32,358 nucleotides of DNA from an uncultured Silvanigrella sp. (GTDB lineage Bacteria; Bdellovibrionota_B; Oligoflexia; Silvanigrellales; Silvanigrellaceae). The position numbers and the translations under genes are program-made. The DNA lies in contig CAIZES010000072.1 of the NCBI GenBank assembly GCA_903932045.1, positions 1-32,358 of the forward strand, given 5' to 3'. Below the pieces are notes generated by a model. That model ran no database searches. It was not told the origin of the DNA and saw nothing but the letters and a program-made list of their open reading frames with translations. This document shows positions 5,887 to 19,764 of the stretch, one piece after another. The stretch's first letter is position 1, and each line of letters opens with the position of its first letter.

Positions 5887-6329
5887 CACGTTTAGGACGA
5901 TGCGCATGTAACGATTTTGCGTTCGGTTGTGCGCGCATGCTTCACTCACATCGTTTGGAAAAAAAGTGCGAAGCGATATTACTTATTACAAACAGAACGA
6001 AACTTTTCTTTTCCATTGACAATAAAAACTTGCATAAGGCCTTGCATAAGGCCTTGCACATCGACAACTAGACGCAAACAAGTTCTTGCAATAAGATTAC
6101 AGTTTGAACTCGACTCAAATCACCTAAACCGAACTTATCCATGCAATGGCTCTTAGTTCTGAAATGTCAATCTGTCATTTCTCGCTTGAACGCGACTCAA
6201 ATTCCATTTCACAAGAATCGGCAGAGTTTGCTTCTATCCAATAGGAAAAATTCGACTGGCCGTCGCTATTTTCTGTCACCTAAACTGAAACGGAAGGCTC
6301 AAATCTATGCCATTAGGTGTGGAACGTAA
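5887..6329. other. decayed non-coding stretch after the gcv operon
   Basis: No convincing gene is seen in these 443 bases. It holds a small tandem repeat (6030-6058). It also holds dispersed similar words: GACTCAAAT occurs near 6112 and 6193, and TCACCTAAAC near 6120 and 6278. These suggest degenerate duplications. No GC-rich hairpin with a T-run follows gcvPB. The adjacent broken kinase suggests that this whole block is the remains of a longer locus. Confidence 0.5.
6030..6058 (+). repeat. 12-bp direct tandem repeat
   Basis: TTGCATAAGGCC occurs at 6030-6041 and 6042-6053, followed by a partial third copy TTGCA at 6054-6058. It lies in non-coding sequence upstream of the broken histidine kinase. 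Confidence 0.85.
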
Positions 6330-6694
6330 CAACTCACCTCTGTCAACGGCATGCTCGAAGACATCATGGAAATTGGACGAATAAAAAAACCCATTACAGA
6401 CACGACTGGTGTCGTCTCACTCATAGAATCAAGTCTTACCGAAGTTTTTCAAATTCATCAGAACACTCAGAAGATTTGCCAAAACTTTTTGAAGCCTTCT
6501 TTTCAAAAGGAAAAAAAGGCGGCACCGGCCTTGGGCTCGGTATAGCAAAAAAAGTTGTAGACGCACACTCCGGCGACATTCGTCGCCAACATACTAACGA
6601 CAAAAAATTTGTGGAATTTGTCTTCACGCTGCCCGTGTTACGCACACTGACACCAAAACAACGGAAGAACTTCCCGCATCTTCATCTGACATAA
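6330..6694 (+). pseudogene. remnant of a sensor histidine kinase
   Basis: Two pieces of a histidine kinase lie in different frames. From 6330, one frame reads NGMLEDIMEIGRIKKP followed by VVSLIESSLTEV, which resembles the end of a HisKA dimerisation helix and the linker into the ATPase domain. From about 6470, another frame reads LPKLFEAFFSKGKKGGTGLGLGIAKK, then VVDAHSGDI and FVFTLPV. This is the F-box and G2-box end of a HATPase_c domain. The H-box, N-box and G1 box between and before these pieces are missing. It is therefore frameshifted, internally deleted and truncated at the 5' end, and cannot make an active kinase. Confidence 0.8.
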
Positions 6695-6702
6695 TAGGAA
6701 TT

Positions 6703-7077
6703 ATGAGTTCTGTGAGTTCTCAACAAGTGCCATCTGGATTGGCAGTTGTACCCGATCCCCGCGAAATGGAGCTCAACGATGATGTAGACCTTGTGCTGGC
6801 AACATCTATAGACGAATTTGAAGATAAGATTGCAGCAGATTCCAAGATAATTGAACGCATCATCTGTGTAATAAACGATTTTTGGTTTGAAAAGGAAAAT
6901 GCTCTTGAATTGAATGTTGTCGGCAAGATTCGCTTTCATAACTATACCGGACCAATTTACCTCTCATCAAATATTGGAAACGAATACAATACCCACGAAT
7001 TCACATTGGTAATCCCAAAACATGCTATGAATTGGACAAACCTTCAAATACTTCTTGCCAAAAAAATCCGCGAATAA
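6703..7077 (+). CDS. hypothetical protein, 124 aa
   Basis: Unrecognised protein. It starts at an ATG with AGGAA a few bases upstream, 8 nt after the end of the kinase remnant, so it may once have been the next gene of that operon. It is acidic, with a flexible Ser/Pro-rich start (residues 1-22), an acidic helix-like part (ELNDDVDLVLATSIDEFEDK), and a C-terminal half with hydrophobic/aromatic alternation (LNVVGKIRFHNYTGPIYL) that looks like beta structure. No signal peptide or membrane segment. With the neighbouring gene broken it may itself be decaying, but its reading frame is intact. Confidence 0.5.
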   Translation: MSSVSSQQVPSGLAVVPDPREMELNDDVDLVLATSIDEFEDKIAADSKIIERIICVINDFWFEKENALELNVVGKIRFHNYTGPIYLSSNIGNEYNTHEFTLVIPKHAMNWTNLQILLAKKIRE

Positions 7078-7139
7078 TCGACACAATGCAGCAGAATAGC
7101 ATAGAAAACCGCAGAACAGACCTCAATACTCAGAACTCA

Positions 7140-7880
7140 TCAGTACTGAAGGCCTTTACTGCGTTGAATTGCGAAAGTTTTCATTCGCGCAAGGTCTTTC
7201 ATACCTAATTCGGGATGAAAAACAACTCGTTCCTGATGCAACTCCATGCCAAGCGCTTCTTCCACTTGAACGGATGCCGAAATATATTTCTTATCGTCTT
7301 CCAACGGCGAAGCAAATTCGAATCTTGAAAAATAGATGACAGGAAAAAGTTCATTTCCATCAAAGGTATCAGCAAGCAAACTCCGACGAACCTGCTCAAG
7401 CCATTTAGCACTGGAAAAATTTGAACTGGGAGATTTTCTCACGCTCTCCACTTCCAGCTGAGTCATGTCACGAATGCAGCGAGAAAAACGAATTCCAGAG
7501 CGTCCAGATTGCTTAAATTCCAACTCCGAAATTTCCGATATGCCATTTTGAAGAAGCGGAAATTCCACAACCTCTATGTATGGAAGAAGACGGTCACGCA
7601 CGCGCCACCCAAGATATAGAAAGGGAAGAACAAAAAACTTGCCACCATCTTGTTCCGATTCACAACCCGCAACAAATTGCATCTTTGCAAGAGGTCCGTA
7701 GGACTTCGGCTGCACTCCTCCGCAACACTGTTCTCGCTTGTTGCGGTCACGACGGAATAAGTTTCCGAGTGCCAAGCGATTCGCCTCCATACGCTCGTGC
7801 TGCAAATCGGCAAAATCACAGCAAACATCGAGCCACGAAAACACTGCAAAGAGTTCCCTGTTCACAAACTTGTCCTGAAG
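7140..7880 (-). CDS. hypothetical protein, about 246 aa
   Basis: Unrecognised cytoplasmic-looking protein. The frame is open from a GTG at 7937, but starting there would leave only 33 bp for the divergent bactofilin gene. An ATG at 7880 (MLQDKFVNREL) has GGAGG 10 nt upstream and is preferred with modest confidence; ATGs at 7907 and 7901 are alternatives. The protein is rich in Arg, Glu and Phe, with an RRDRNKREQCCGG basic/cysteine segment in the first third and an aromatic stretch VLPFLYLGWRVRDRLLPYIEVV in the middle. A conserved-looking acidic C-terminal half follows (YFSRFEFASPLEDDKKYISASVQVEEALG). No motif allows a function to be named. It is divergent from the bactofilin gene and convergent with the 6703-7077 gene. 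Confidence 0.5.
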   Translation of the reverse strand, partial: LQDKFVNRELFAVFSWLDVCCDFADLQHERMEANRLALGNLFRRDRNKREQCCGGVQPKSYGPLAKMQFVAGCESEQDGGKFFVLPFLYLGWRVRDRLLPYIEVVEFPLLQNGISEISELEFKQSGRSGIRFSRCIRDMTQLEVESVRKSPSSNFSSAKWLEQVRRSLLADTFDGNELFPVIYFSRFEFASPLEDDKKYISASVQVEEALGMELHQERVVFHPELGMKDLARMKTFAIQRSKGLQY

Positions 7881-7970
7881 CATTTCTTTCCCGCCTCCCA
7901 TTCGCATCCACTTGGTAAAATGAAAACGAATAACCACAACTGCACCCTTTCATCATTTCAGGAGAGTACA

Positions 7971-8402
7971 GTGTTTGCAAAGGCAACAGGTCAAAAACAA
8001 AAAAAATCGAACATGAACACCCGACCCATCTCTATGCTGGCCGAAGGCTGTTCGTTCAAAGGCAAAATGTTCTTGCGCGGCGAGGTTCGCCTCGGAGGCC
8101 ATGTTGAGGGGACTATTGTTGCCGATGACGATCTCATAGTAGAGGAAAGTGCGACAATTAACGCCGACATCAACGGCGTCAATATTCAGGTTTCCGGACA
8201 AATAAACGGAAACATAAAAACCCAGGGAATACTCATACTGACTCCAACCGCAAGAATGACGGGAAACATTCATACGCCACATCTTGTGATAGAAGACGGC
8301 GCCGTTCTTCATGGAAATGTTTCCATTGAAGAAGACAATACAAAATCAAAAGAGACGAACATTGAGGAGTCTTCCTCCGAGGAAACCAGAGCGGCATCCT
8401 AG
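7971..8402 (+). CDS. bactofilin family cytoskeletal protein
   Basis: Bactofilins polymerise into filaments through a right-handed beta-helix and act as scaffolds for cell shape, polarity or envelope enzymes. The central region (residues about 24-120) shows the typical repeats: SFKGKMFLRGEVRLGGHVEGTI, then DLIVEESATINADI, VSGQINGNIKTQGILIL, ARMTGNIHTPHLVIEDGAVLHG. The start is GTG at 7971 because CAGGAGAG lies a few bases before it; the ATG at 8013 (MNTRPISML) lacks such a site. The basic N-terminal tail and the acidic Glu/Ser-rich C-terminal tail (EESSSEET) are disordered extensions, as is common in bactofilins. It is followed after 79 nt by an orphan gene on the same strand. Confidence 0.88.
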   Translation: MFAKATGQKQKKSNMNTRPISMLAEGCSFKGKMFLRGEVRLGGHVEGTIVADDDLIVEESATINADINGVNIQVSGQINGNIKTQGILILTPTARMTGNIHTPHLVIEDGAVLHGNVSIEEDNTKSKETNIEESSSEETRAAS

Positions 8403-8481
8403 GTACCCTGGAAATAGCATAGACTCGCCAAGGCGAAATAAGAAAAACCACGACGAAGAAATAGACATTGGAGAATCAGGC

Positions 8482-8961
8482 ATGGGTGACAAATTCAAGG
8501 AAAAAATCTCGGCAACACGCGAAATCTATCGCCAATCCAGCGAATGTGTTGGCGTCACGTTAAACCTTTTTGGCATTTCACGTGCCGACGGCGGCTATGA
8601 TTATCCAAGCGACTCCGATTTCGACCACCTTGCATCACTCGTCAATGAAATTGAGGGACGCCACCGAGACGAAGAAGATGGTCCTTACCGAACCACAATA
8701 CTTGCTGTTGGAGAATGGCTGCAGGCCGCACTTCACAGGGAATATTTGGATCATCAGAACAACTCGGGATTTCCTTCCATCTTTTACGCTGTTCGCAAAG
8801 GCGTCGAAGTCATTCACTGCTTATTGCATCGCGACCTCAGGCGACGCGCGCTTTCTGGCACCGAAAGTTCGGTTGTACAGGAATTTGTTGCTCTCGCTTC
8901 GCAATATCCCAATCCCTGCGAATGGCATCCACCGCGCAAACGCCAGCGAAAGAGCTCATAA
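8482..8961 (+). CDS. hypothetical protein, 159 aa
   Basis: Unrecognised protein downstream of the bactofilin, probably co-transcribed. The ATG at 8482 has GGAG 8 nt upstream; the frame is open further upstream but that part is low-complexity and overlaps the bactofilin. It appears cytoplasmic and largely helical. It has an acidic middle (YDYPSDSDFDHLASLVNEIEGRHRDEEDG), a hydrophobic helix-like stretch around TTILAVGEWLQAAL and a very basic C-terminus (PPRKRQRKSS). The position after a bactofilin makes a partner role conceivable, but nothing in the sequence shows it. It converges on the enoyl-CoA hydratase gene with a 22-bp gap. Confidence 0.6.
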   Translation: MGDKFKEKISATREIYRQSSECVGVTLNLFGISRADGGYDYPSDSDFDHLASLVNEIEGRHRDEEDGPYRTTILAVGEWLQAALHREYLDHQNNSGFPSIFYAVRKGVEVIHCLLHRDLRRRALSGTESSVVQEFVALASQYPNPCEWHPPRKRQRKSS

Positions 8962-8983
8962 ATAACATATCCTTTAGAAACCC

Positions 8984-9775
8984 TCACTCTGGGGAACTAA
9001 AATGCGGAGGCCGTTTTTCGAGAAACGCCGCCATACCTTCCTTTGCCTCGGCAGTGCTAAAACGAAGTCCAAAAACAGCTGATTCCAGGCGACATCCCGT
9101 GGTAATATCGCATTCCAATCCACGACGTACAACGGATTTTGCGTGATGAACTGCAGATGGCCCTTTAGCAAGTATGGAATCGACAATTCGCCCCAGCGCC
9201 ACATCCAAGTCTTCTGGTGCATGAACTGAATTTACAAACCCTGCTGCCATGGCTTGTTCTGCGGAATATTTTTCGCCAGATGCAATCCATTCCATTGCTC
9301 GCGCCACGCCAACCCGACGAGCAAAACGCTGCGTTCCACCAAATCCGGGAATGAGCCCCAAAGAAACTTCGGGGAACCCAAATCGAGCCTTTGAAGAAGC
9401 TAAAATAAAATCGGCAGACAGTGCCAATTCTAAACCACCACCCAATGCAAAACCCTGAACTCGCGCAATGACAATTTGAGGAAGATTTTCGATTGCTGCA
9501 AAAGCCCTGAAACCCAATTGAGAAAATCGCTCGGCTTCTGAAGCATTCAACAAAGACATCTCAAGAATATCTGCACCTGCAACAAACGACTTTTCTCCAG
9601 CGCTTTGTAAAATGACCACACCAATATCGCGCCTGGACGAAAGTTCATTGGCACAACTTTCCAAAGCGGCAAGAACCTCGGCATTCAGCGCGTTGAGTGC
9701 TTCCGGACGGCAAATTTCGAGCACAGCTTTTCGTCCATCAATTCGAAGACGAACAGGACTGTTATTTGAAGACAT
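8984..9775 (-). CDS. enoyl-CoA hydratase/isomerase (crotonase) family protein
   Basis: This is a crotonase-fold enzyme acting on acyl-CoA substrates, most likely hydrating trans-2-enoyl-CoA. It has 263 aa, the usual length of the single-domain family. The oxyanion-hole region is AGADI (residues 66-70). GFALGGGLELALSADF supplies the first catalytic glutamate (E116) and FGFPEVSLGLIPGFGGTQR the second (E136), the pair used by true enoyl-CoA hydratases. The ATG at 9775 has GGAGA upstream. It is the last gene of a leftward cluster but lies 106 bp after the preceding gene. Exact substrate cannot be read from the sequence; isomerase or other crotonase activities remain possible. Confidence 0.92.
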   Translation of the reverse strand: MSSNNSPVRLRIDGRKAVLEICRPEALNALNAEVLAALESCANELSSRRDIGVVILQSAGEKSFVAGADILEMSLLNASEAERFSQLGFRAFAAIENLPQIVIARVQGFALGGGLELALSADFILASSKARFGFPEVSLGLIPGFGGTQRFARRVGVARAMEWIASGEKYSAEQAMAAGFVNSVHAPEDLDVALGRIVDSILAKGPSAVHHAKSVVRRGLECDITTGCRLESAVFGLRFSTAEAKEGMAAFLEKRPPHFSSPE

Positions 9776-9881
9776 GGTGAAATTCTCCTTGCAAAAAAGT
9801 GAGTTCCAAGCGGGATCTGTTTAATAAGAGCCAACTGTGCAACTGTATATCACATCGAACTTTCTTTTCACAAAAATAAAG

Positions 9882-10307
9882 TCACCAACCCGGCAACTCC
9901 AACAATCGACCCGTGATTTTCGCGCCCTTCACCTTCTTTTCTGTTATTTTGTTTTTGCTATTTCCCAAAACGCGCACAACCACATTGTCGGATGCGCCAG
10001 TATCTCGAAAATCGACGACAAGGGCTGTTGTACCCGATTTTACTGCCCGCAAGCGAAGCGAACCCGAAAAAGGATCACGCTCCACAACAACCACTTTTGG
10101 ATTTTGTGATCGCACACCCACAATTCGTGAAACCGGCAATCGACGCACAGTTCCTTCTTTCATTTCAATAGGAGGATCGTCACTTGCCAACCCAATTTGT
10201 ACAAGAAATACGCTCATCAAAAGGCCTAGACACAGCGCTCTGCATAAGCCGAATATGCACAACAACCTTACGCATTTCGGCGAACTGTTCCAAACGCGAT
10301 TTTGCAT
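9882..10307 (-). CDS. exported protein with pilus/secretin N-terminal-like domain
   Basis: A 141-aa exported protein. Residues 1 to about 42 form a long signal peptide with a hydrophobic core (LCLGLLMSVFLVQIGLA) and probable cleavage after GLA. The remainder (IEMKEGTVRRLPVSRIVGVRSQNP, then SGSLRLRAVKSGTTALVVDF, then DNVVVRVL) resembles the small beta domain at the N-terminus of CpaC/RcpA-type secretins (T2SS-T3SS_pil_N family): a hydrophobic 'set-point' strand, a dPxV-like turn, and a 'G.T.L.v.D..G' strand pair. The secretin part itself is absent. The ATG at 10307 has AGAGGA 5 nt upstream. It overlaps the preceding gene by 128 bp, which is unusual. It is divergent from the RND-like pair, with the orphan membrane gene in between. 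Confidence 0.65.
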   Translation of the reverse strand: MQNRVWNSSPKCVRLLCIFGLCRALCLGLLMSVFLVQIGLASDDPPIEMKEGTVRRLPVSRIVGVRSQNPKVVVVERDPFSGSLRLRAVKSGTTALVVDFRDTGASDNVVVRVLGNSKNKITEKKVKGAKITGRLLELPGW

Positions 10308-10632
10308 ATTTTCCTCTTTGTCTTTTCAAAATAAACCTTCCGCCATCGCGAACCTGCAATGTCATCATCCCCAAAAAACACACGCCACCAGAAACACCCT
10401 CGAGAACCTCAAACACAGCACATTCGCTCTTCAGGAGACACTCCGAAGTGCCCAAAAGAACTCTTTCCGGAAAGCCGTAGCGACTGTGATCACGCAAATA
10501 TCCGGCCTGAGAAATATTCTCTATAAATGATGAACCTCGCGCTCCAAAAAGTTCTCGAATTGTTCTCCAACAAGCCCAAAGACACATGCAAGACAGCGAA
10601 ACCGACACAACCCATTCCCAAATTCGTCGCAT
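10180..10632 (-). CDS. hypothetical single-pass membrane protein, about 150 aa
   Basis: Unrecognised. The frame opens at a TTG at 10644, but the ATG at 10632 carries a GGAGAGG SD immediately upstream and is the likely start. Residues about 5-26 (WEWVVSVSLSCMCLWACW) form one hydrophobic segment, so it is anchored in or exported through the inner membrane. The following part has cysteines (SECLLKSEC) and a glycine/hydrophobic stretch (VLEGVSGGVCFLGMMTLQV), then a basic region (RFILKRQRGKYAKSR). The layout (short N-terminal helix then globular domain) is reminiscent of pseudopilins or Tad minor pilins, and the next gene carries a pilus-secretin-like domain; this is only a hint. The last 40 or so codons overlap the start of that next gene in another frame. 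Confidence 0.5.
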   Translation of the reverse strand: MRRIWEWVVSVSLSCMCLWACWRTIRELFGARGSSFIENISQAGYLRDHSRYGFPERVLLGTSECLLKSECAVFEVLEGVSGGVCFLGMMTLQVRDGGRFILKRQRGKYAKSRLEQFAEMRKVVVHIRLMQSAVSRPFDERISCTNWVGK

Positions 10633-10831
10633 TCGCCTCTCCAAAAAAACAATCTATGCACTGGCCCATTTAAAAACGCAACTCGCTTCCCGATGGTGGC
10701 GGAAAACTTTGCACTGTGTCTGGAAACTGAACAATTCCGCCACCGATATTGACACGATGCACACAAAAAAATGCTTGCAATAGCACTCTATGCCATGATC
10801 ATATTGTGCATGAATACCAAATGGAGAAACG

Positions 10832-13800
10832 GTGCTAAGAAAGTTGCTGCGCACTCTTATCATTGAACGATTCCGCGTGATCTGGCTAACTCTTATCTTG
10901 TGTTTAGCCGGACTCGAAATTTATATTCGCACTCCCATTGAATTATTGCCAAAATCCAATCCACAACAATATCTCGTGGCAGTATTAAACCCCGGAGAAC
11001 CTGGCGGCAATGACACAAAAAAAATAGAGCGAATTGTCCGTGAAAGCGCATCACAGATAGCATCTATCGAAAACGTTTACTCCGAGATATCTCCCCAGCT
11101 TTTGGTAACCAGAATTTCCGCTCCGCAAATACCCACAAATTTTACCGACGCACTCAGAGCTTCAATCGCTCAAAAATTTTCGGAGAACGAAATTCGAAAG
11201 TTCTTTCAAGTGACCGCTTTGGGGCGAGAGTCAGCATCAACAATTGACCTCATGATAACTCAAAAGGACGGCACCAACACATCATCCACAGAAGTTATTC
11301 CAGCCACTGAAATCGTAGTAAAACTTATTCCAGCCCTAGAACAAATACGCGGCATTTCTGCTGTGCGCTCACAAGGACTGCCATCCGAAGACATTGCCTT
11401 GCGCCCCCTGCCAGGCATGCTCTTGAATGCGTCTGAAAGCGAAATCGAAATCGCGAAAAAAATATCGGAAACGTTCCGCCCACCTTCTCTTTGGGAACCC
11501 ACTCCATATGGAACTATCCTTTCCGAACGCTACCTTCCCGCAAGCAGAATTGAAAGTATTCCAATTTCCATAAACTCAAAAGCGACACAATCAACAACGA
11601 TTGGCAATCTGTACGCAGTTGAAAAACATATCGATCCGCATGCTGCAGTGGTTCTCAGCAACTCAAGCACCGCTTTTCTTTTGGCAATTCACACAACAGC
11701 GAAGGCCGACCTTGTTCAAACCAGTTTACAGGTTAAGAGTTACCTAGAGCGCTTTAATAAAGACTCGCAGAAATATACCGCTACCATTGTGTCGGACGCA
11801 GCAGACTACATTAATGCTGCTCAAGAAAACGTTGGCGACAATTTAAAGTGGGGCGTCATATTAACATGTCTTTGCATATTGATATTTGCACAGAATATAC
11901 GATATACGGCAATCACAGCCATATCCATTCCCGTGAGTCTCGCTCTCACATTTCCATTTTTTGAAATATTTTCCATCAGCAGAAACGTTATGTCTCTGGC
12001 AGGAATTACACTCAGTGTAGGAGTTGTTGTAGACGCAACAATCGCTGTAGTCGATGGAATAGACAGCGGCATGAGAAAAGGGTTGACAGCAACCGAAGCT
12101 GCATGGCAGTCCGCATGCGAAAACTTTATGGCCGTCGCAATGACCTCGCTTTCAACGCTTGCGGTATTTGTTCCAATCTTATTTTTGAAAGGAACGGTGG
12201 GTGATCTCTTTTTCGACCTTTCTCTTACCGTCATTATTTCCCAAACAATTGCGTTTCTTGTTGCCGTATTTATTGTTCCCGGACTCACATCGGCAATTTA
12301 CGAAATCATGAATGTTCATTTCGAAACCGAGTCAGATGATCAAACCGTCACCGAAAATATTTGGTCACGCGCTTTCGCTTCGGCCGTAAAAGTTCTTCTC
12401 ACACGAAAACTCTTTTACTGGAGTGCAGGAATTGCATCAATTGCTCTTGCGGTTATTGGCGTCGCAATATCCCCTCCTACCGAATTTCTGCCCAAACGCG
12501 CATCACACGAATTTCGAGCCATTTCTCCCGAAGCGAGTGAGAGCGATAACAGTTTGGTGATGGCCCAAAGGGTAGACGAAACACTTAGAAAAATGGGAGC
12601 CGAAAAACGGTTGGTTCTTGTTGACTCATCCGGACTCCGTGCAGATTTTTCCATTCCTCAGGGAAAGTCTGCGGAACTTCGACTCATGGAGGAGTTCATT
12701 AACAGAGGGACACAGCCATATCGTACTATGGTTTCAGCGAGAAATCCAATTGATGTTGAAGCCACAAATAGTCGGGATCTAGAATTCTACATTCCGGAAC
12801 ATTTGCAAAATCGAGCAAGCTTTAAATCTGAAGTTGAAGCCATTGCCGGCGTCTCCAGTGCTCGGTGGAGTTCAGAAAACACCGCACTCTACTCGCGTCT
12901 CGATACCGACAGCTTTCGAATGTTAACCCTTCCGAGTGCGCCGGGCACAGCTTGGGCATTGTGGAGTTTTTCATATTCCAAGCTCTTGCTGGGCGCCGAT
13001 ATCCCTTCACACGAATGGGAACGCACACGACAACCACGGCTGATTTGGAGAGAACCCAGAGATGGAGACACTCGAACCCATCCCGCGCTAAACAGCACAA
13101 TTCCTGAGTCACGCGAGGATATTCTGACATCAACACTGCGTCATGCTAAAACATCTGTAATTGTTAATGGCGAGACCACCGAAGGCGTTGCTCTCAAAAT
13201 TCAAGGTAAAACAGTAACGGAAGTGTCTGCAGATTTGGAAAAAATAGCAAATAGACACAAAGTTCAGCTGACATGGGGAATTAGCAAAAAAGATGCGGAC
13301 AGAAGTATTCGCGACCTCGGTATTTGTTTTGTAATTGCAACTATTGCAATAATTGCGCTTCTTTATATTCAAAATCGTTCATTCTCGGTAACGACGGTTA
13401 TCATGTGCACTTTTATTTGGGGTCTCATTGGATCATTTCCTGGGCTAGTTATCCATGGTGAAAGCCTAAATGCCAGCGCAATTGTTGGATTCATTCTTTT
13501 GGCAGGAACTATCGTCAATAACGGAATTTTGCTGATGTCACTTGTTGGCCGATCGCGTCGCGCACAGCTCGCTCCCGGACTCTGTTGTTTAGATGCTGTG
13601 AGTCATCGAACAATTCCTGTGTTTATCACTTCTCTCACAACCGCCGTTGGAATGCTTCCGATGGTATGGGACACGGGCGAGGGCTCACAAATGTATCGCG
13701 CTCTCTCCATAGTTGTGGTTTACGGAACAATGGTCAGCACCCCCATCAGCCTAATTGGCATTCCAAGCATTTTCATGATTCTCTACGACATTCAAGAAGC

Positions 13801-13876
13801 CTTTGAGAGGATACGACTCCGCATTCTCATCCTATTCTCAAAAAATTCACAAGAAACACAGGAGACGATTCCATGA
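10832..13876 (+). CDS. RND-family inner-membrane transporter subunit
   Basis: A 1014-aa protein with the AcrB/HAE1 layout: one N-terminal membrane helix (about 13-33), a periplasmic domain (about 40-335), a helix block (about 338-500), a second periplasmic domain (about 560-830) and a C-terminal helix block (about 835-985). The helix-4 region reads LAGITLSVGVVVDATIAVV: only the first of the two relay aspartates is present (D401), the second being A402. The helix-10 lysine position is asparagine (N896, in TIVNNGILL), a variant also known in other RND branches. GTG at 10832 is the start because GGAG lies 6 nt before it. It overlaps the next gene by 4 nt (ATGA). No membrane-fusion protein or TolC-like gene lies beside it. 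Substrate unknown. Confidence 0.85.
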   Translation: MLRKLLRTLIIERFRVIWLTLILCLAGLEIYIRTPIELLPKSNPQQYLVAVLNPGEPGGNDTKKIERIVRESASQIASIENVYSEISPQLLVTRISAPQIPTNFTDALRASIAQKFSENEIRKFFQVTALGRESASTIDLMITQKDGTNTSSTEVIPATEIVVKLIPALEQIRGISAVRSQGLPSEDIALRPLPGMLLNASESEIEIAKKISETFRPPSLWEPTPYGTILSERYLPASRIESIPISINSKATQSTTIGNLYAVEKHIDPHAAVVLSNSSTAFLLAIHTTAKADLVQTSLQVKSYLERFNKDSQKYTATIVSDAADYINAAQENVGDNLKWGVILTCLCILIFAQNIRYTAITAISIPVSLALTFPFFEIFSISRNVMSLAGITLSVGVVVDATIAVVDGIDSGMRKGLTATEAAWQSACENFMAVAMTSLSTLAVFVPILFLKGTVGDLFFDLSLTVIISQTIAFLVAVFIVPGLTSAIYEIMNVHFETESDDQTVTENIWSRAFASAVKVLLTRKLFYWSAGIASIALAVIGVAISPPTEFLPKRASHEFRAISPEASESDNSLVMAQRVDETLRKMGAEKRLVLVDSSGLRADFSIPQGKSAELRLMEEFINRGTQPYRTMVSARNPIDVEATNSRDLEFYIPEHLQNRASFKSEVEAIAGVSSARWSSENTALYSRLDTDSFRMLTLPSAPGTAWALWSFSYSKLLLGADIPSHEWERTRQPRLIWREPRDGDTRTHPALNSTIPESREDILTSTLRHAKTSVIVNGETTEGVALKIQGKTVTEVSADLEKIANRHKVQLTWGISKKDADRSIRDLGICFVIATIAIIALLYIQNRSFSVTTVIMCTFIWGLIGSFPGLVIHGESLNASAIVGFILLAGTIVNNGILLMSLVGRSRRAQLAPGLCCLDAVSHRTIPVFITSLTTAVGMLPMVWDTGEGSQMYRALSIVVVYGTMVSTPISLIGIPSIFMILYDIQEAFERIRLRILILFSKNSQETQETIP

Positions 13877-16800
13877 ATCTTTCTGTGCATGCAATCCAAA
13901 AAACAAGTTTGGCTCTAACATTGCTTCTTGCAATTTTGGCATTCGCAATCGCAATTGAATATCCGGATCTCATTGGAAAATACGTGCGTTCTCATGAAGC
14001 TCACGTTTGGCGTCTCAATCTTGAAGTCAATTCAGCGCCTGCAACAGTGCATGCAACCACGTTGGCTTCAATGCTAGAGCGCAGTCTTAAGAGTCAGGAA
14101 CAAATCGAAAATTTAATAATTTCAACCACACCCACAAGAATAACTGCGCACTTTTACACAAAGCCGTCTGTACTTCCAAAAGATCTTGCAACTGCGCTCA
14201 ACGCCAAAATCAGCGCAATCCAAGATTCCGGAACGACCCCTCAATTCGAAACAACTTTCTATTACGACGCACTCTCAAAAGTGGAGAATGTTGGAACAAA
14301 CTTGGATGCATTAAGAGACTCTGCAACTCAAACCCTATCGTTTGCTTTGGAATCAGCTACGAACAACGAAAAGCGAAACATTCTTGCTCTTGCGAGTCCG
14401 GATATTATTCTCGATTCAACCCAATCTGCTGGAACCAGCGTCGATATCAATGCACTCGATCTTCTCTTGCAAAGGCTTCATACCATTCGTGGAGTGCAAA
14501 AAGCATTTGCACGAAATGTTAGAATTCCCACTCTCCAAGTGGAAACAGATCCCAGACAACTTCTGCAACTTGGAATTTCTCCACAGATTATCCACAAAAC
14601 AATTCAAACTCATCTGCGCATTGATCAAGGTATTTCTGAGAATATCCTGGGACAGAGAGGATACATCTTTCGAAAAAAATCGGAAACGACACAAGAAATT
14701 TGCACCCTTTCATTTCAAGTTCCGAAAAACTCCGCGTTACTCCACGTGTGTGACGTATCGAAAGTTGAGTCGACCCCAATGTTCCTGGATTTCTATACGG
14801 TAGGAACATCTCTAGCCACACTCGAGAAACGAATTCGTGAGCAGAACAAAGCAACCTTAAATCCTACAAAAGAGAAGAGCTCTATTGTTATCATTCTCGA
14901 CTCAGAAACGGTTGCACAAGACCTAGTCGAAGAAATTGAGTCGGCAATTCATGTGCAGGCGGGCTCTCCGCAGTGGACTATTAGTTCTGTTCGAAAAGCA
15001 AATACGGGGGCATATAATTTCGCGTTCTTCTTTGCATCAATGATTATTCTTGCGATACTTGCATTTTCTAGAAAAGAAAGTTTCGGAAATCGACGTCTTT
15101 TTTTGTTCTTACTCGCTCATGCCACCGCCTTTTGGAGCGCAGCAACCTTAGCTTTGGGAATTGACGCTCATCCCCAGTTACTTGGAATTCCTCTTCTCGC
15201 AGCTGCCGTGGCGTTTGCAACTCACCGCTGCGAAAGTCTTCTAAAAGGTTTGCACGGAGCAAAAAACGCTCGTCTAACCTTTGCTGCATTTTCGGTTGGT
15301 ATTGCCGCCACCACAATATTTGCACGCTCATTTATCAATTTTGGACAATCTCAATTCGACACCATCGCATCGGGCGCTCTAGCGATGGCCGCAGGTATCT
15401 ACGCGTTCAGTCTTGCCCCGCAACTTATGAACGAATCACAAGCATCCACACATCAAGCCGACGTGGCATTTCACGCCAGAACAGGCCTGATTTCTCTCGT
15501 TGTTCCACTTCTTGGGGTTGCTATTTCAATGCTGCCAACGATAAATTTTCCAAGCACGATATTTATTTCGCTTGGATTTGAAGGCGGCACTTCGGTTGAT
15601 ATCGCTCAAAATGCTGCCGCAAACATTGAACGCATTGCGCGAGAAAACAAGGCAACCGCAGTTATCGCCGCTCCAGAAAAAACCTCTGTCATTCAACTCA
15701 AACCCTCTCCATTTTCTCTACTGAACACAGCCACCGTTCCTCTCGAAGAAATTCTCGCATCCCTGCACCCATCCATTCCGGGAGAGACAAACATTCAAGA
15801 AAAATCTGGATCGATAACGCGTCAACCAGTGATTGTAAAGAGTAACTTCTCCGAAATCATGCCAACAAATACTCGAAAAGAAAATGACGATGACCTTGTT
15901 CGCTTTCAAAAATGGATGGATACCATGCAACAACCCATTTCGTCAGATTCACAAAATTCTCTGCAATCAAGGGCTCAATTTGGATTCCAAAAAAGTGAAA
16001 AGAAAAACTTTCTTTCCATGAGCGCTCTGGTTGTTCCAGAATGGAGTCGAGAAATAACGAGAATCTCAATATCTAATATTGGAGAAACAACTCTAGCAGA
16101 AATTCATAGTCGTGAAGGAGAAAGAAATATTCGCGCAAACCTCGACAACTTTCTATCGCAATTTCAACAAAACACCAAATCCGAATTACAAACACACATT
16201 TCAGATACAGCTTCCGAGATTGCCATGCTGACCCACAATCAAACCATAGGCACACTTATGCTTGCTGCCATACTTTTTCTTGCGGGAATTCTCTACTTTG
16301 CTTCAACAGAACGCGCACTTCTCACCACCGTCACATTTGGAGCAATTCACCTCACTGTAAAAGGAGTTTTTCATCTTTTTACCATTCCGCACGGTCTCGA
16401 CGCTATTTCCGAAACTCTTCTTTTTCCTTCCACAGAAACCTGGGCATCAACACTTCTCCTCACACTTTGGGCTATTCTTCTTAAAACAGCCGACTACAGG
16501 AGAGCCATGAATATGAGTCTCGACGAAGCTTTCTTTTTGCAGACTCGAATCACAAGACAACTTCGGCGATGGGGATTAATACCGGCACTTGTGATTTCCA
16601 TTTGTGGAATATTTTACTCTAATGTCGCATTGCTTGGAGGAGCTACCATGGCACTTTGGATAGTTGGCGGCTTTTTGTTGCCCGATTGGATGCTTATTTG
16701 GACCAAACTTGCAGAGTGGAAAAACAGAACGTTGCTAAAACTGCACATTCATTTTAAGACCTTGTTAATCTTTATTTTCGCAATATCTCTAGTTCATGTT

Positions 16801-18156
16801 TCAAAGGCAAGAGCAAGCACAGACACAAGCACAATTGACTCACAGTGCGACGGAACGGTAACCATTATCCTTCCCATTCTCGGCCGACCAAAAGGAAAAG
16901 AGCCCGTTCCTCAACGCACATTTCTTTCGGAACGTTTGGCACAAGAAACCAAATGTTCTTGGGTTGAATACGGGCTTACAAGCGACATTATTAAAATCTT
17001 GGAAGGACTCCGTTCAACAGCGGCACAAAGTCGTCTTGTTAGCGATTTTGGGTCTTTTGTTTTGAAAAATCGCGGAAAAATTGAAAGTGCAGCCATCGCA
17101 CATCTGCGAAAAGACGACAAGCAAGCAAGCGCACGAGTTCGAATCTTTGGTGGTTTTTACGAAGAATTTTTGGGTTCGATTTCTTTTTCTATCCTAGAAT
17201 TTCCAAAGGGAAGCGACCCAATCGTTACAAAAATGTCGTCTTCTGAAGAGCAACAAACGCAAACAATTTCGAAGTTAGCGCGCTACATTCGCGGGGAAAA
17301 CGCCCAGCTGCATGAAGAACTTTTAGGTGAAGTCAGTCGCCTCCCGGTGTTTCTGGAACCCGTCGAAAGCTTAGATAAACATCCAGTTTCTGAAAATATT
17401 GCCGGTGAGCTCAATCTTTTTCTGACGAGCAGATTTATAAATCCTCTTTCCTCGAATTTGCTTGAAAGAAAAACCTTCTTTCGCATTGAAAAAAATGCGG
17501 ATGCCTCAAAGTTTGTTCTCAACGTGAAACTTCGTCGCGATGAAACCCGATTCTATGCATCAATTACGGCACGAGCAAGAAACGGAGAAGCGCGAAGAAG
17601 TGCTTGGATTGAGGGCGACGTAAGCCAGTTCACGGAATTTGAAGAAGAAGTTCTTGCTGTTTCAAAAAAGATTCTGTCAAACATAGAAGGAATTGCTGAC
17701 TACTTCGTTGCGTTGGACACTGAATATTATGTTTCGGGATCTCACGATGTCGCGCAAATGTATGGCATATATTTCCGGCAAAACCTAGGAAACGCCGCAT
17801 TGAGCATAAGGCTTCGCAACGGACAAATTGCAGCAAAAGAAGATAAAGCCAACATTGGAATCTTTGGTTTTGGAGGGTCTTTTGGATGGCAGTTTTTTGA
17901 TGTCCGCTGGATCACCGGAGATTTTGGAGTTTCTGCTGACGCAGGAATAGCAACGCCACCCGATAGTTCAAGTCGCGATCTGTGGATTAGCTATGGAGGT
18001 TATATTCAATTTCAATCTAGTCTGCGAAAAAATTTCGCTCTCATCACACGAACCGGGGTGGAGCAGCCTCAGCTTTTTGGAGCCACCGGCGACCGCAAAA
18101 CCATCTTTCATCCGGTTTATTTAAACGCACTAGTGGGCATTGGAGTCATATTTTAG
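13873..18156 (+). CDS. degenerate RND-like protein fused to periplasmic domain and outer-membrane-type barrel
   Basis: A 1427-aa protein coupled to the preceding RND gene by an ATGA overlap. Residues 1 to about 955 follow the RND layout (helix at 12-29, soluble domain, helix block about 375-525, second soluble domain, helix block about 795-950) but have lost the relay residues. The helix-4 counterpart reads LLAAAVAFATHRCESL (441-456) and the helix-10 counterpart LLLTLWAILLKTADY (861-875). Residues about 955-981 look like a signal peptide with a signal-peptidase site (SKARA before S982). Residues 982-1270 are a mixed soluble domain; two loosely similar beta halves may be present. The last 150 residues show about eight alternating hydrophobic strands and end YLNALVGIGVIF, an outer-membrane barrel C-terminal signal with terminal Phe. 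No stop or frameshift interrupts the fusion. Confidence 0.75.
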   Translation: MNLSVHAIQKTSLALTLLLAILAFAIAIEYPDLIGKYVRSHEAHVWRLNLEVNSAPATVHATTLASMLERSLKSQEQIENLIISTTPTRITAHFYTKPSVLPKDLATALNAKISAIQDSGTTPQFETTFYYDALSKVENVGTNLDALRDSATQTLSFALESATNNEKRNILALASPDIILDSTQSAGTSVDINALDLLLQRLHTIRGVQKAFARNVRIPTLQVETDPRQLLQLGISPQIIHKTIQTHLRIDQGISENILGQRGYIFRKKSETTQEICTLSFQVPKNSALLHVCDVSKVESTPMFLDFYTVGTSLATLEKRIREQNKATLNPTKEKSSIVIILDSETVAQDLVEEIESAIHVQAGSPQWTISSVRKANTGAYNFAFFFASMIILAILAFSRKESFGNRRLFLFLLAHATAFWSAATLALGIDAHPQLLGIPLLAAAVAFATHRCESLLKGLHGAKNARLTFAAFSVGIAATTIFARSFINFGQSQFDTIASGALAMAAGIYAFSLAPQLMNESQASTHQADVAFHARTGLISLVVPLLGVAISMLPTINFPSTIFISLGFEGGTSVDIAQNAAANIERIARENKATAVIAAPEKTSVIQLKPSPFSLLNTATVPLEEILASLHPSIPGETNIQEKSGSITRQPVIVKSNFSEIMPTNTRKENDDDLVRFQKWMDTMQQPISSDSQNSLQSRAQFGFQKSEKKNFLSMSALVVPEWSREITRISISNIGETTLAEIHSREGERNIRANLDNFLSQFQQNTKSELQTHISDTASEIAMLTHNQTIGTLMLAAILFLAGILYFASTERALLTTVTFGAIHLTVKGVFHLFTIPHGLDAISETLLFPSTETWASTLLLTLWAILLKTADYRRAMNMSLDEAFFLQTRITRQLRRWGLIPALVISICGIFYSNVALLGGATMALWIVGGFLLPDWMLIWTKLAEWKNRTLLKLHIHFKTLLIFIFAISLVHVSKARASTDTSTIDSQCDGTVTIILPILGRPKGKEPVPQRTFLSERLAQETKCSWVEYGLTSDIIKILEGLRSTAAQSRLVSDFGSFVLKNRGKIESAAIAHLRKDDKQASARVRIFGGFYEEFLGSISFSILEFPKGSDPIVTKMSSSEEQQTQTISKLARYIRGENAQLHEELLGEVSRLPVFLEPVESLDKHPVSENIAGELNLFLTSRFINPLSSNLLERKTFFRIEKNADASKFVLNVKLRRDETRFYASITARARNGEARRSAWIEGDVSQFTEFEEEVLAVSKKILSNIEGIADYFVALDTEYYVSGSHDVAQMYGIYFRQNLGNAALSIRLRNGQIAAKEDKANIGIFGFGGSFGWQFFDVRWITGDFGVSADAGIATPPDSSSRDLWISYGGYIQFQSSLRKNFALITRTGVEQPQLFGATGDRKTIFHPVYLNALVGIGVIF

Positions 18157-18161
18157 CATCT

Positions 18162-18191
18162 ATTACAGCCACGATTATTACAGCCACGATT
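18162..18191 (+). repeat. 15-bp perfect tandem duplication between convergent genes
   Basis: ATTACAGCCACGATT occurs twice back to back, at 18162-18176 and 18177-18191, just after the stop of the RND-barrel gene. The second copy reaches into the stop codon of the leftward L,D-transpeptidase-like gene. No terminator hairpin is seen at this junction. Confidence 0.9.
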
Positions 18192-19581
18192 ATTCCAAAA
18201 AACTCTCTATTTCAGCAATGCTCACTGGCAAACGATTGTCTCCAGGAACATCAATCACCGTAACATATCCAGATGGCGATGGGGTTTCTTGTACCTGCGA
18301 GAGCTTCTTTAACAGGGTTCTCATATCCGTTTTGACAGGATTTCCATTATCGTCATAAATTTCTCGAGCCGAAAGACATCCTAGAGCAGGATTCCATTCC
18401 AGCCCGCTGCTGTAGCCTTTTTTAATTGCAAATCCATCGAGAGCCTCGCCAGTGCCATGAATTCTAAGCACGCTACGCCCCATTTTTCCGGCATAATACG
18501 ACTGCATAATGGGCCGATAGGAACGCCAACTTTCTGGCCACATTTTTTGGTACTCCGTTTCATCACCCCTGAAACTTCCGCTCTTCCAAGGCAAGAAACG
18601 ATTTGGGCCACTCTCAAACGGCAAGAAAATTACAATTTCGTTAAATTGTCCGTACGCTCTAAACTCCTGAGACTGTGGATGTTGCAATCCTTCCATTCTC
18701 AAAATTCCCTGAGGAGTGGCACCTTGCGAAAAATTCCACGCCACACCATATATCGACGATGTTCGCAGAGACATCATCCAAATATGATTGTCCTCGCGCA
18801 GAAAACTTCCATCTGGTTTGCGCAAAATAGTAGAACACACAACATTGCGATCCGGACGACACAGAACAAAGAGGTGGGGTTCCTTGCTTTCGCGGTATCG
18901 CAAAAGATCTTTGATATCTGGAAAACTTCCATTTCCGCGCCTTTGTAAAATTCCTTCAACAGTTGTTGCAAGTTGAGTACTGCCTCGCCAACCAGGAAAG
19001 CGTGAGTAAAAAGCATTGAGCAATGAACTCATTTGAGCACTGCCAATTTTGCCACCATTATCAAGAGCCGATAAAGCAATTGCAACAAATGTTTCGTTCG
19101 GACTCTTTTGAGTAATTCTCAAAAACTCCCTTTCGATTTCATCAGCTTTCGGAAACTTTCCTAGGTACAATGTGGTTGCCAAACGCATTGCTGACATCAG
19201 TATTTGCTGCTCACTCTGATTGCGAATAGAATACAACGACCGCTCAATAATCTGCACAACTGCTGCTTGAACGAACCAATCGTCCTTCGTTGCAACGCAA
19301 GCAGCATCATAAAGAACAATCTGCCAATGCTTTGCATTTTGAGCATTCACTGGAAAATTTCCCAAATCAAAATTGGACGGCCGGATATTCGATCGCTGGC
19401 CCCGGTAGTTTTCAGCACGCTGCGAAGCTGTTGCCTGCAATTGCCGCGTTCCACCAACCCCTTCGCTTGCCTCAGCCAGCTGATAAATCGCAGGAAAAAG
19501 AAAGGTACAATAACTCAACTTTTTTGAAAGCTTAATAAAATTCCGAGAAAAAACATGAAATTGAGGTATCACATGTGACAT
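18190..19581 (-). CDS. exported L,D-transpeptidase-like (YkuD-type) protein
   Basis: L,D-transpeptidases cross-link peptidoglycan stem peptides or attach proteins to them, using a cysteine. Here residues 284-298 (FSQGATPQGILRMEG) resemble the YkuD substrate-loop 'G..TP.G.f'. LRIHGTG contains the conserved histidine (H375), and NPALGCLSAREIYD contains the catalytic cysteine (C402). The usual [S/T]HGC is replaced by ALGC, so the active site is divergent. An N-terminal segment (residues about 16-38, LSYCTFLFPAIYQLAEA) looks like a signal peptide; residues 80-225 are a helical domain of unknown role. ATG 19581 is chosen for AAAGGA 7 nt upstream; the frame is open to 19725 but without an SD. It is the last gene of the nusB cluster. 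Confidence 0.68.
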   Translation of the reverse strand: MSHVIPQFHVFSRNFIKLSKKLSYCTFLFPAIYQLAEASEGVGGTRQLQATASQRAENYRGQRSNIRPSNFDLGNFPVNAQNAKHWQIVLYDAACVATKDDWFVQAAVVQIIERSLYSIRNQSEQQILMSAMRLATTLYLGKFPKADEIEREFLRITQKSPNETFVAIALSALDNGGKIGSAQMSSLLNAFYSRFPGWRGSTQLATTVEGILQRRGNGSFPDIKDLLRYRESKEPHLFVLCRPDRNVVCSTILRKPDGSFLREDNHIWMMSLRTSSIYGVAWNFSQGATPQGILRMEGLQHPQSQEFRAYGQFNEIVIFLPFESGPNRFLPWKSGSFRGDETEYQKMWPESWRSYRPIMQSYYAGKMGRSVLRIHGTGEALDGFAIKKGYSSGLEWNPALGCLSAREIYDDNGNPVKTDMRTLLKKLSQVQETPSPSGYVTVIDVPGDNRLPVSIAEIESFLE

Positions 19582-19630
19582 AGAAAAATCCTTTCCTAGC
19601 GGCAAGAAAATCGGAAACTGAAACTGAACC

Positions 19631-19650
19631 GAGACGCCATAGCACGTCTC
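19631..19650 (-). other. hairpin in the leader of the L,D-transpeptidase-like gene
   Basis: GAGACG and CGTCTC pair perfectly around an 8-nt loop, about 50 nt before the chosen start codon. No T-run follows on the minus strand, so it is not a terminator. It may simply structure the 183-nt leader between the two genes. Confidence 0.4.
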
Positions 19651-19764
19651 TCCAAAAAGAAAAGGAAAAGTTTCTATAAATCCAAATAATTTACATTGAT
19701 GTTGTAGCACGTAAAAATCTTGCATTTTAAAAAGAAACTAGAGAAGTTCAACAAGGCCGTTGCA

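Follow-up and report, generated by a model that had tools for sequence, protein, structure and literature searches.

The window analyzed here (32,358 nucleotides of an uncultured Silvanigrella sp.; GenBank assembly GCA_903932045.1, contig CAIZES010000072.1, positions 1 to 32,358) carries two adjacent open reading frames (ORFs), A and B, that most likely encode the heteromeric permease of an efflux system of the resistance-nodulation-division (RND) superfamily. According to our alignments, A is a complete RND permease in which the aspartate of transmembrane (TM) helix 4, the arginine of TM11, and the threonine of the proton relay are retained. By the same kind of comparison, B is a full-length, highly divergent RND homolog with neither the TM4 acids nor the TM10 lysine, and it runs on into an additional module, C. 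The explanation we favor, with modest confidence, is a tripartite RND pump with a noncanonical heteromeric permease, in which A would be energized and B relay-dead, B being made as a B-C polyprotein that is probably cut by signal peptidase. The A-B-C system is a conserved and rare variant of tripartite RND pumps, present in three genera of one family: those of the window's genome (G000, 503 contigs) and of two related Silvanigrellales genomes, G001 and G002. We regard it as an unusual version of a known type of machine, not as a new type.

A is an RND permease with a variant relay

ORF A matches the Pfam family ACR_tran with 289.9 bits (curated cutoff, 28) and has 12 TM helices by hydropathy. 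It stays well below the curated cutoff of all 18 NCBIfam RND and SecDF models that it touches, the best score being 206 against a cutoff of 1250 bits. To read the relay, we aligned A with AcrB, MdtB, MdtC, and CusA of Escherichia coli K-12, one CzcA, and other RND proteins, and took the columns of AcrB D407, D408, K940, R971, and T978. The resulting table has 22 rows: 3 A orthologs in 4 pieces, 8 named references, and 10 rows from other loci. The last were filtered for an open frame of at least 600 residues with an acidic TM4 residue at the relay column, and the table shows variants, not their frequency.

At these columns A has D401, A402, N896, R926, and T933 (D-A-N-R-T), which is not the relay of AcrB-type HAE-1 pumps. 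The preliminary description of this DNA had taken D401, within the string VVDATIAVV, as the only relay aspartate kept and had placed N896 at the lysine position, and the alignment agrees. The G001 ortholog is also D-A-N-R-T, and the two gene pieces of G002 give D-A and N-R-T; the aspartate, whose invariance had been left to be checked, is thus kept in every readable A ortholog, as are the asparagine, arginine, and threonine. The same description regarded A's reduced relay as peculiar, a reading that the comparison does not support. CusA has D-A-E-R-T and CzcA D-G-L-R-T in the same alignment, an Ilyobacter permease encoded beside its own TolC and adaptor has D-D-N-R-T, and a Pontibacillus permease has D-N-N-R-T. 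In this small sample, the combination D-A-N is found only in A and its orthologs. For CusA, one study describes a relay formed by D405, E939, and K984 (PMC8092243). Since a single TM4 acid and a TM10 asparagine each occur in permeases without a known relay-less partner, A is likely energized, via a somewhat different residue network.

In a tree of 19 rows with long branches, A forms its own clade (support, 100/100) outside the HME and MdtBC groups. Three rows (L026, L066, and L036, which scores like L035) were left out of this tree, the A pieces of G002 were entered as one row, and the second permease of locus L062 was included after removal of its first 85 residues. The family models agree with this placement outside the CusA/CzcA clade (TIGR00914, 155.2 bits against a cutoff of 701), and an HAE-3 or SecDF identity was ruled out (TIGR00921, 21.6 against 351.9; TIGR00916, 28.3 against 148.6). 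Neither A nor B has an MMPL family match in Pfam at E values up to 1; no separate alignment with MmpL or HpnN was made. Every one of the family's 14 genomes has A-like RND matches, but these are mostly RND permeases of the ordinary sort. As a side observation, the A ortholog of G001 (L042:9270-11900, minus strand) has only 876 residues; what is missing, about 100 residues of the first periplasmic loop, may be the docking part.

B is an RND homolog that has lost the relay

ORF B has no ACR_tran match in Pfam at E values up to 1 and no RND match in NCBIfam. Its homology appears in profile-profile comparison: a profile of the three B orthologs aligns end to end, over 855 columns, with a 16-row RND profile from which A was excluded (R2; hhalign, 98.0%, E = 2.9e-13). 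An 18-row profile that includes two A rows (R) gives 98.4% (E = 6.3e-15), and its reversed version, used as a decoy, gives 0.6% (E = 0.099); the match of B is thus no product of chance. Both RND profiles derive from the relay table, with A_G002n, A_G002c, L026, and L066 dropped. The strongest local match of B is the first porter loop, and a hidden Markov model search in the reverse direction matches the same part in the window and G002. By hydropathy, B has one TM helix, a 350-residue loop, six TM helices, a 234-residue loop, and five TM helices (TM10 placed by eye). This is the RND arrangement, with 12 TM helices in the window and G002 and 10 in G001. The RND-like stretch takes up about 940 to 980 of the 1,427 residues of B, and the remainder is module C.

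In the end-to-end profile alignment, the five relay columns of B hold A447, F448, W857, R898, and A905. The B proteins of G002 and G001 have no acid near the middle of the corresponding helices either. Relay acids and lysine are absent from all three orthologs. The preliminary description had quoted LLAAAVAFATHRCESL and LLLTLWAILLKTADY from B and found no Asp pair there; both strings are present as quoted, and the profile alignment bears the observation out. The B orthologs share only 21 to 22% identity, yet in all three genera the frame stays open, with 729 to about 1029 codons, and is thus probably kept by selection. The shortest is that of G001 (729 residues), where roughly two TM helices are gone and the second periplasmic loop has 125 residues, against 234 and 244 in the others.

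The genes of A and B overlap by ATGA in the window, as had been noted before, and in G001; in G002, stop and start are 1 nucleotide apart. These junctions indicate that A and B are translationally coupled.

B continues into a predicted periplasmic and outer membrane module

Module C had been overlooked so far. After TM12, B runs on through K962-TLLIFIFAISLVHVSK-ARA(981)/S, and B and C form one polypeptide in two of the three genomes, the window's and G002 (a frame of 1501 codons). In G001, B and C are separate genes that overlap by ATGA, and C starts with an ordinary-looking signal peptide. When this peptide is aligned with the joints of the other two, the alanine at position −1 of the proposed cut is invariant in all three. 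On these two grounds, we read the B-C joint as a putative internal signal peptide. At the joint in the window and G002, we saw no ATG and, by eye, no clear ribosome-binding site for an alternative start of C inside B.

C is conserved at 25 to 28% identity across orthologs. An AlphaFold model from the 3-row alignment (predicted local distance difference test [pLDDT], 64) has two regions of alpha/beta structure and, at the C-terminal end, eight strands. Foldseek returned TolB and NspA first, then OmpA, OmpW, PqiC, OprF, and LpoB, all of them weak, with 2 of 889 matches at an E value of 0.001 or less. VIA-align matched residues 187 to 309 of the model to FlgT, a PqiC-family (DUF330) protein, the TolB N-terminal domain, PelC, and LptE (Z, 11.0 to 7.4), and residues 306 to 461 to NspA (Z = 9.0; root mean square deviation, 2.8; 116 residues). 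The C-terminal end is a candidate eight-stranded barrel of the OmpA/NspA type, its strands being modeled with moderate confidence. These matches speak to fold and not to function, and they barely cover the first alpha/beta region. As modeled, C would consist of one or more TolB-N/PqiC-like periplasmic domains followed by an outer membrane barrel.

Adaptor and channel are encoded in the same three genomes

An HlyD-type adaptor and a TolC-like channel are encoded upstream of A, divergent from it, in G001 and G002; one frame joining a STAS domain with the channel comes first in order, followed by the adaptor. The genome of the window has channel and adaptor at C229:77-2537 and the STAS domain at the end of contig C173, unlinked from A-B. 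The Pfam family OEP is above its cutoff in all three channels, and HlyD_3 in two of the three adaptors, that of G001 scoring 18.8 against a cutoff of 22.2. The system therefore has the cognate adaptor and outer membrane channel of a tripartite pump. The earlier statement that no adaptor gene lies beside A and B is correct for the window, but an adaptor exists elsewhere in this genome, where the adaptor query hit contigs other than that of the window, and beside A in both relatives.

The comparison across the phylum covered 58 genomes; at an E value of 1e-20, the profiles of adaptor and channel each match three. C matches the identical three, and B matches these and one more, through a weak hit to an ordinary RND protein. 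That hit (G018, 7e-5) has D-D in TM4 and was rejected as a B. A contig search with alignment A2 confirmed three loci among 210 pattern matches, of which two are those of G001 and G002. The third, L062, was ruled out as a relative of A-B, since both of its tandem RND genes are complete and neither is B-like.

Some features of these loci stand apart from the argument. In the L062 tandem (6060-9215 and 8939-12763, plus strand), TM4 of both permeases carries D-N and TM10 the motif V-V-N, and the second permease has a long low-complexity insert rich in G, A, D, and E between TM4 and TM5. Adjoining it (12902-14884, minus strand) is a gene whose product combines a caspase-like (Peptidase_C14) with an FGE-sulfatase domain. 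The STAS domain fused to the channel (L042:11742-13817 and L044:2336-4240, plus strand) is of the cytoplasmic type. The joint resembles a signal peptide, with AVA/Q in G001 and ALA/S in G002; internal starts for the channel are possible. The counterparts in the window's genome are C173:2-367 (minus strand) and C229:2-1426 (plus strand), and the contigs end between them. STAS-channel is an apparent second polyprotein of the same system.

Layout of the locus

The upstream neighbors of A in the window are genes for a 141-residue secreted-looking protein (9882-10307, minus strand; no Pfam match), which may resemble the N-terminal domain of pilus secretins, and for an enoyl-CoA hydratase. Downstream, a gene for a 511-residue protein (18190-19725, minus strand) converges with B; it has no Pfam or NCBIfam family above cutoff.

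Table 1. Features of the A-B-C locus, in window coordinates
Feature	Position	Strand	Basis
ORF A, RND-A, AcrB-like permease, 1014 aa, 12 TM, GTG start	10832..13876	+	Pfam ACR_tran, hydropathy, relay columns
ORF B, 1427 aa, RND-like part and module C	13873..18156	+	
ATGA overlap, A stop / B start	13873..13876	+	
A codons D401-A402, columns of AcrB D407-D408	12032..12037	+	Alignment; D-A also in G001 and G002 orthologs
A codon N896, column of AcrB K940	13517..13519	+	Alignment; N also in G001 and G002 orthologs
RND-B, relay-less RND-fold part, residues 1-936 (TM1 to TM12)	13873..16680	+	hhalign, TM topology 1+6+5
B residues A447-F448, columns of AcrB D407-D408	15211..15216	+	Profile alignment
B residue W857, column of AcrB K940	16441..16443	+	Profile alignment; TM10 placement uncertain by some residues
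Internal signal-peptide-like segment, K962...A979-R980-A981/S982, proposed signal peptidase I site	16756..16815	+	Codons; aligns with the signal peptide of C in G001, where C has its own gene
Module C, putative secreted part, about 446 aa	16816..18156	+	3-row alignment; model pLDDT 64
C, FlgT/TolB-N/PqiC/PelC/LptE-like periplasmic domain (predicted)	17329..17697	+	VIA-align Z up to 11.0, model residues 187-309
C, predicted 8-stranded outer membrane barrel	17701..18150	+	Strands E311-E460; NspA Foldseek E 8.3e-4, VIA Z 9.0

A working model and its alternatives

In the favored model, A and B would co-assemble in one trimer, in which A would use the proton gradient and B would move passively, as a scaffold or as a subunit that imposes asymmetry. 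We cast A as the energized partner by likeness to MdtB in MdtB2C, for which a single subunit has been proposed to carry most of the energy coupling. In G001, B is without much of the second porter loop, so a complete binding pocket is hardly possible there; a role in scaffolding or asymmetry seems more likely for B than substrate binding. Signal peptidase I would probably cut the chain between B and C, so that C is set free in the periplasm. The barrel of C would insert in the outer membrane, with the TolB-N/PqiC-like part or parts hanging in the periplasm, and C might stabilize the adaptor-channel assembly from the outer membrane side.

Several observations argue for this model: the RND homology of B, its coupling to A, the loss of the relay acids and lysine in all three B proteins, the retention of D, N, R, and T in all readable A orthologs, the co-occurrence of adaptor, channel, B, and C, the C gene of G001 with its own signal peptide, the structure matches of C, and the precedent of MdtB2C. 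The preliminary description had likewise proposed a heteromeric machine with one structural or regulatory subunit. The coupled RND pair and the relay loss in B fit that proposal; two further points, the oddity of A's relay and the missing adaptor, are not supported.

Other points weigh against the model, in which physical contact between A and B is an inference. The three B rows do not match the three A rows in direct profile comparison (0.1%), and the homology of B becomes visible only against the broader RND profile. The structure model of B was too poor to use (pLDDT, 37). A normal rotating trimer is strained in G001, whose B is short of about two TM helices and of half the second loop and whose A has only 876 residues. 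Finally, the adaptor, channel, B, and C profiles were built from the three genomes and match them by construction, so that the informative point is their absence elsewhere at the thresholds used; the three are related metagenome-assembled genomes, and their co-occurrence is not independent evidence.

A possible alternative, to which we give some weight, is that A is a self-sufficient homotrimeric pump and B an RND-derived accessory membrane protein outside the trimer, serving mainly as membrane leader or assembly partner for C. The shrinking of B in G001, the occurrence of A's relay residues in RND permeases without a relay-less partner, and the single B-C polypeptide in two of the three genomes would all suit such a role. 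Yet B retains the porter region, its best match to the RND profile, and stays coupled to A in all three genomes. We think it unlikely that the B-C chain stays uncut, in which case the periplasmic domains would tether the relay-less, inner membrane RND subunit covalently to an outer membrane barrel, one polypeptide spanning the whole envelope and locking the pump in place.

An ordinary heteromeric drug pump of the MdtBC/MuxBC type, with B having merely lost residues, is improbable. Coupled tandem RND genes with an adaptor and a channel would be expected of such a pump, and the best scorers against the B profile are the MdtB/MdtC-type sequences L033 and L035/L036 and E. coli MdtC. However, A branches outside the MdtB/MdtC group in a tree that is small and has long branches, it falls short of every NCBIfam subfamily cutoff, and MdtB and MdtC are both D-D-K-R-T. 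Similarly improbable is that B is decaying and functionless after a duplication, its coupling and fusion being accidental; the low identity and differing sizes of the B proteins would fit, but B remains open in three genera, and there is conservation in C, which follows B either in frame or as a coupled gene.

If A and B do share a trimer, the system is a natural experiment on RND asymmetry, with one subunit devoid of the relay; it would bear directly on whether functional rotation needs proton conduction in every protomer, an issue that MdtB2C also raises. From the apparent polyproteins, B-C and STAS-channel, it would follow that a single chain containing an internal signal sequence can supply both inner and outer membrane parts of a pump, whose stoichiometry would thereby be fixed. 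The features of most interest to us are that one coupled subunit has lost the relay entirely and that the proteins are apparently made as polyproteins; we found neither described in the literature searched. In open-access full text, we found nothing fitting on relay-less or heteromeric RND subunits, on RND-barrel fusions, or on STAS domains with an efflux channel and RND; we do not claim absence from print. Nor did a search for studies of efflux in Silvanigrella bring up a paper that, judged by title and opening of the abstract, deals with the system described here.

Comparison with known systems

The predicted folds of C have relatives in the TolB N-terminal domain, FlgT, PqiC, PelC, and LptE and in the NspA, OmpA, and OmpX barrels; the difference is that sequence identity is only about 5 to 15% and that here the parts are joined together and to an RND subunit. 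Polyprotein design in a membrane complex is known from the cytochrome b/c1 protein FbcH of Bradyrhizobium, in which two subunits are made as one chain and split at an internal signal peptide. FbcH belongs to a respiratory complex and its processing has reportedly been shown experimentally, whereas cleavage of B-C is only predicted.

Among single permeases, CusA and CzcA (HME-RND) resemble A in having one TM4 aspartate with an adjoining alanine or glycine. They differ in the lysine column, which holds Glu in CusA and Leu in CzcA but Asn in A, and A lies outside their clade. The non-HME permeases of Ilyobacter (WP_013388954) and Pontibacillus (WP_207530765) and both permeases of L062 share with A the TM10 asparagine and the residues at R971 and T978. 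These are, however, single permeases or two complete ones, and in them we saw no relay-less partner and no C module.

A comparable architecture is that of MdtBC (MdtB2C in E. coli) and MuxBC (Pseudomonas aeruginosa), with tandem RND permease genes and adaptor and channel partners. The same set is present here, adjacent in G001 and G002 and elsewhere in the genome in G000. By sequence, A does not belong to the Mdt group, as it falls outside it in the tree and scores 143 against a cutoff of 1774 with PRK10614 and 126.7 against 1584 with PRK10503. MdtBC is reported to act as a B2C trimer, relay mutations in MdtB harm the pump more than those in MdtC, MdtC is thought to bind substrate, and a division of labor between the subunits is proposed (PMC4338810); conflicting reports are noted elsewhere (PMC7015380). 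MdtB and MdtC are about 50% similar in sequence according to both sources (PMC7015380, PMC4338810), whereas A and B show no similarity in direct profile comparison and B carries C. Both Mdt subunits keep the acids and the lysine that B lacks, and in this respect B, as aligned, goes beyond MdtC: its relay is wholly absent.

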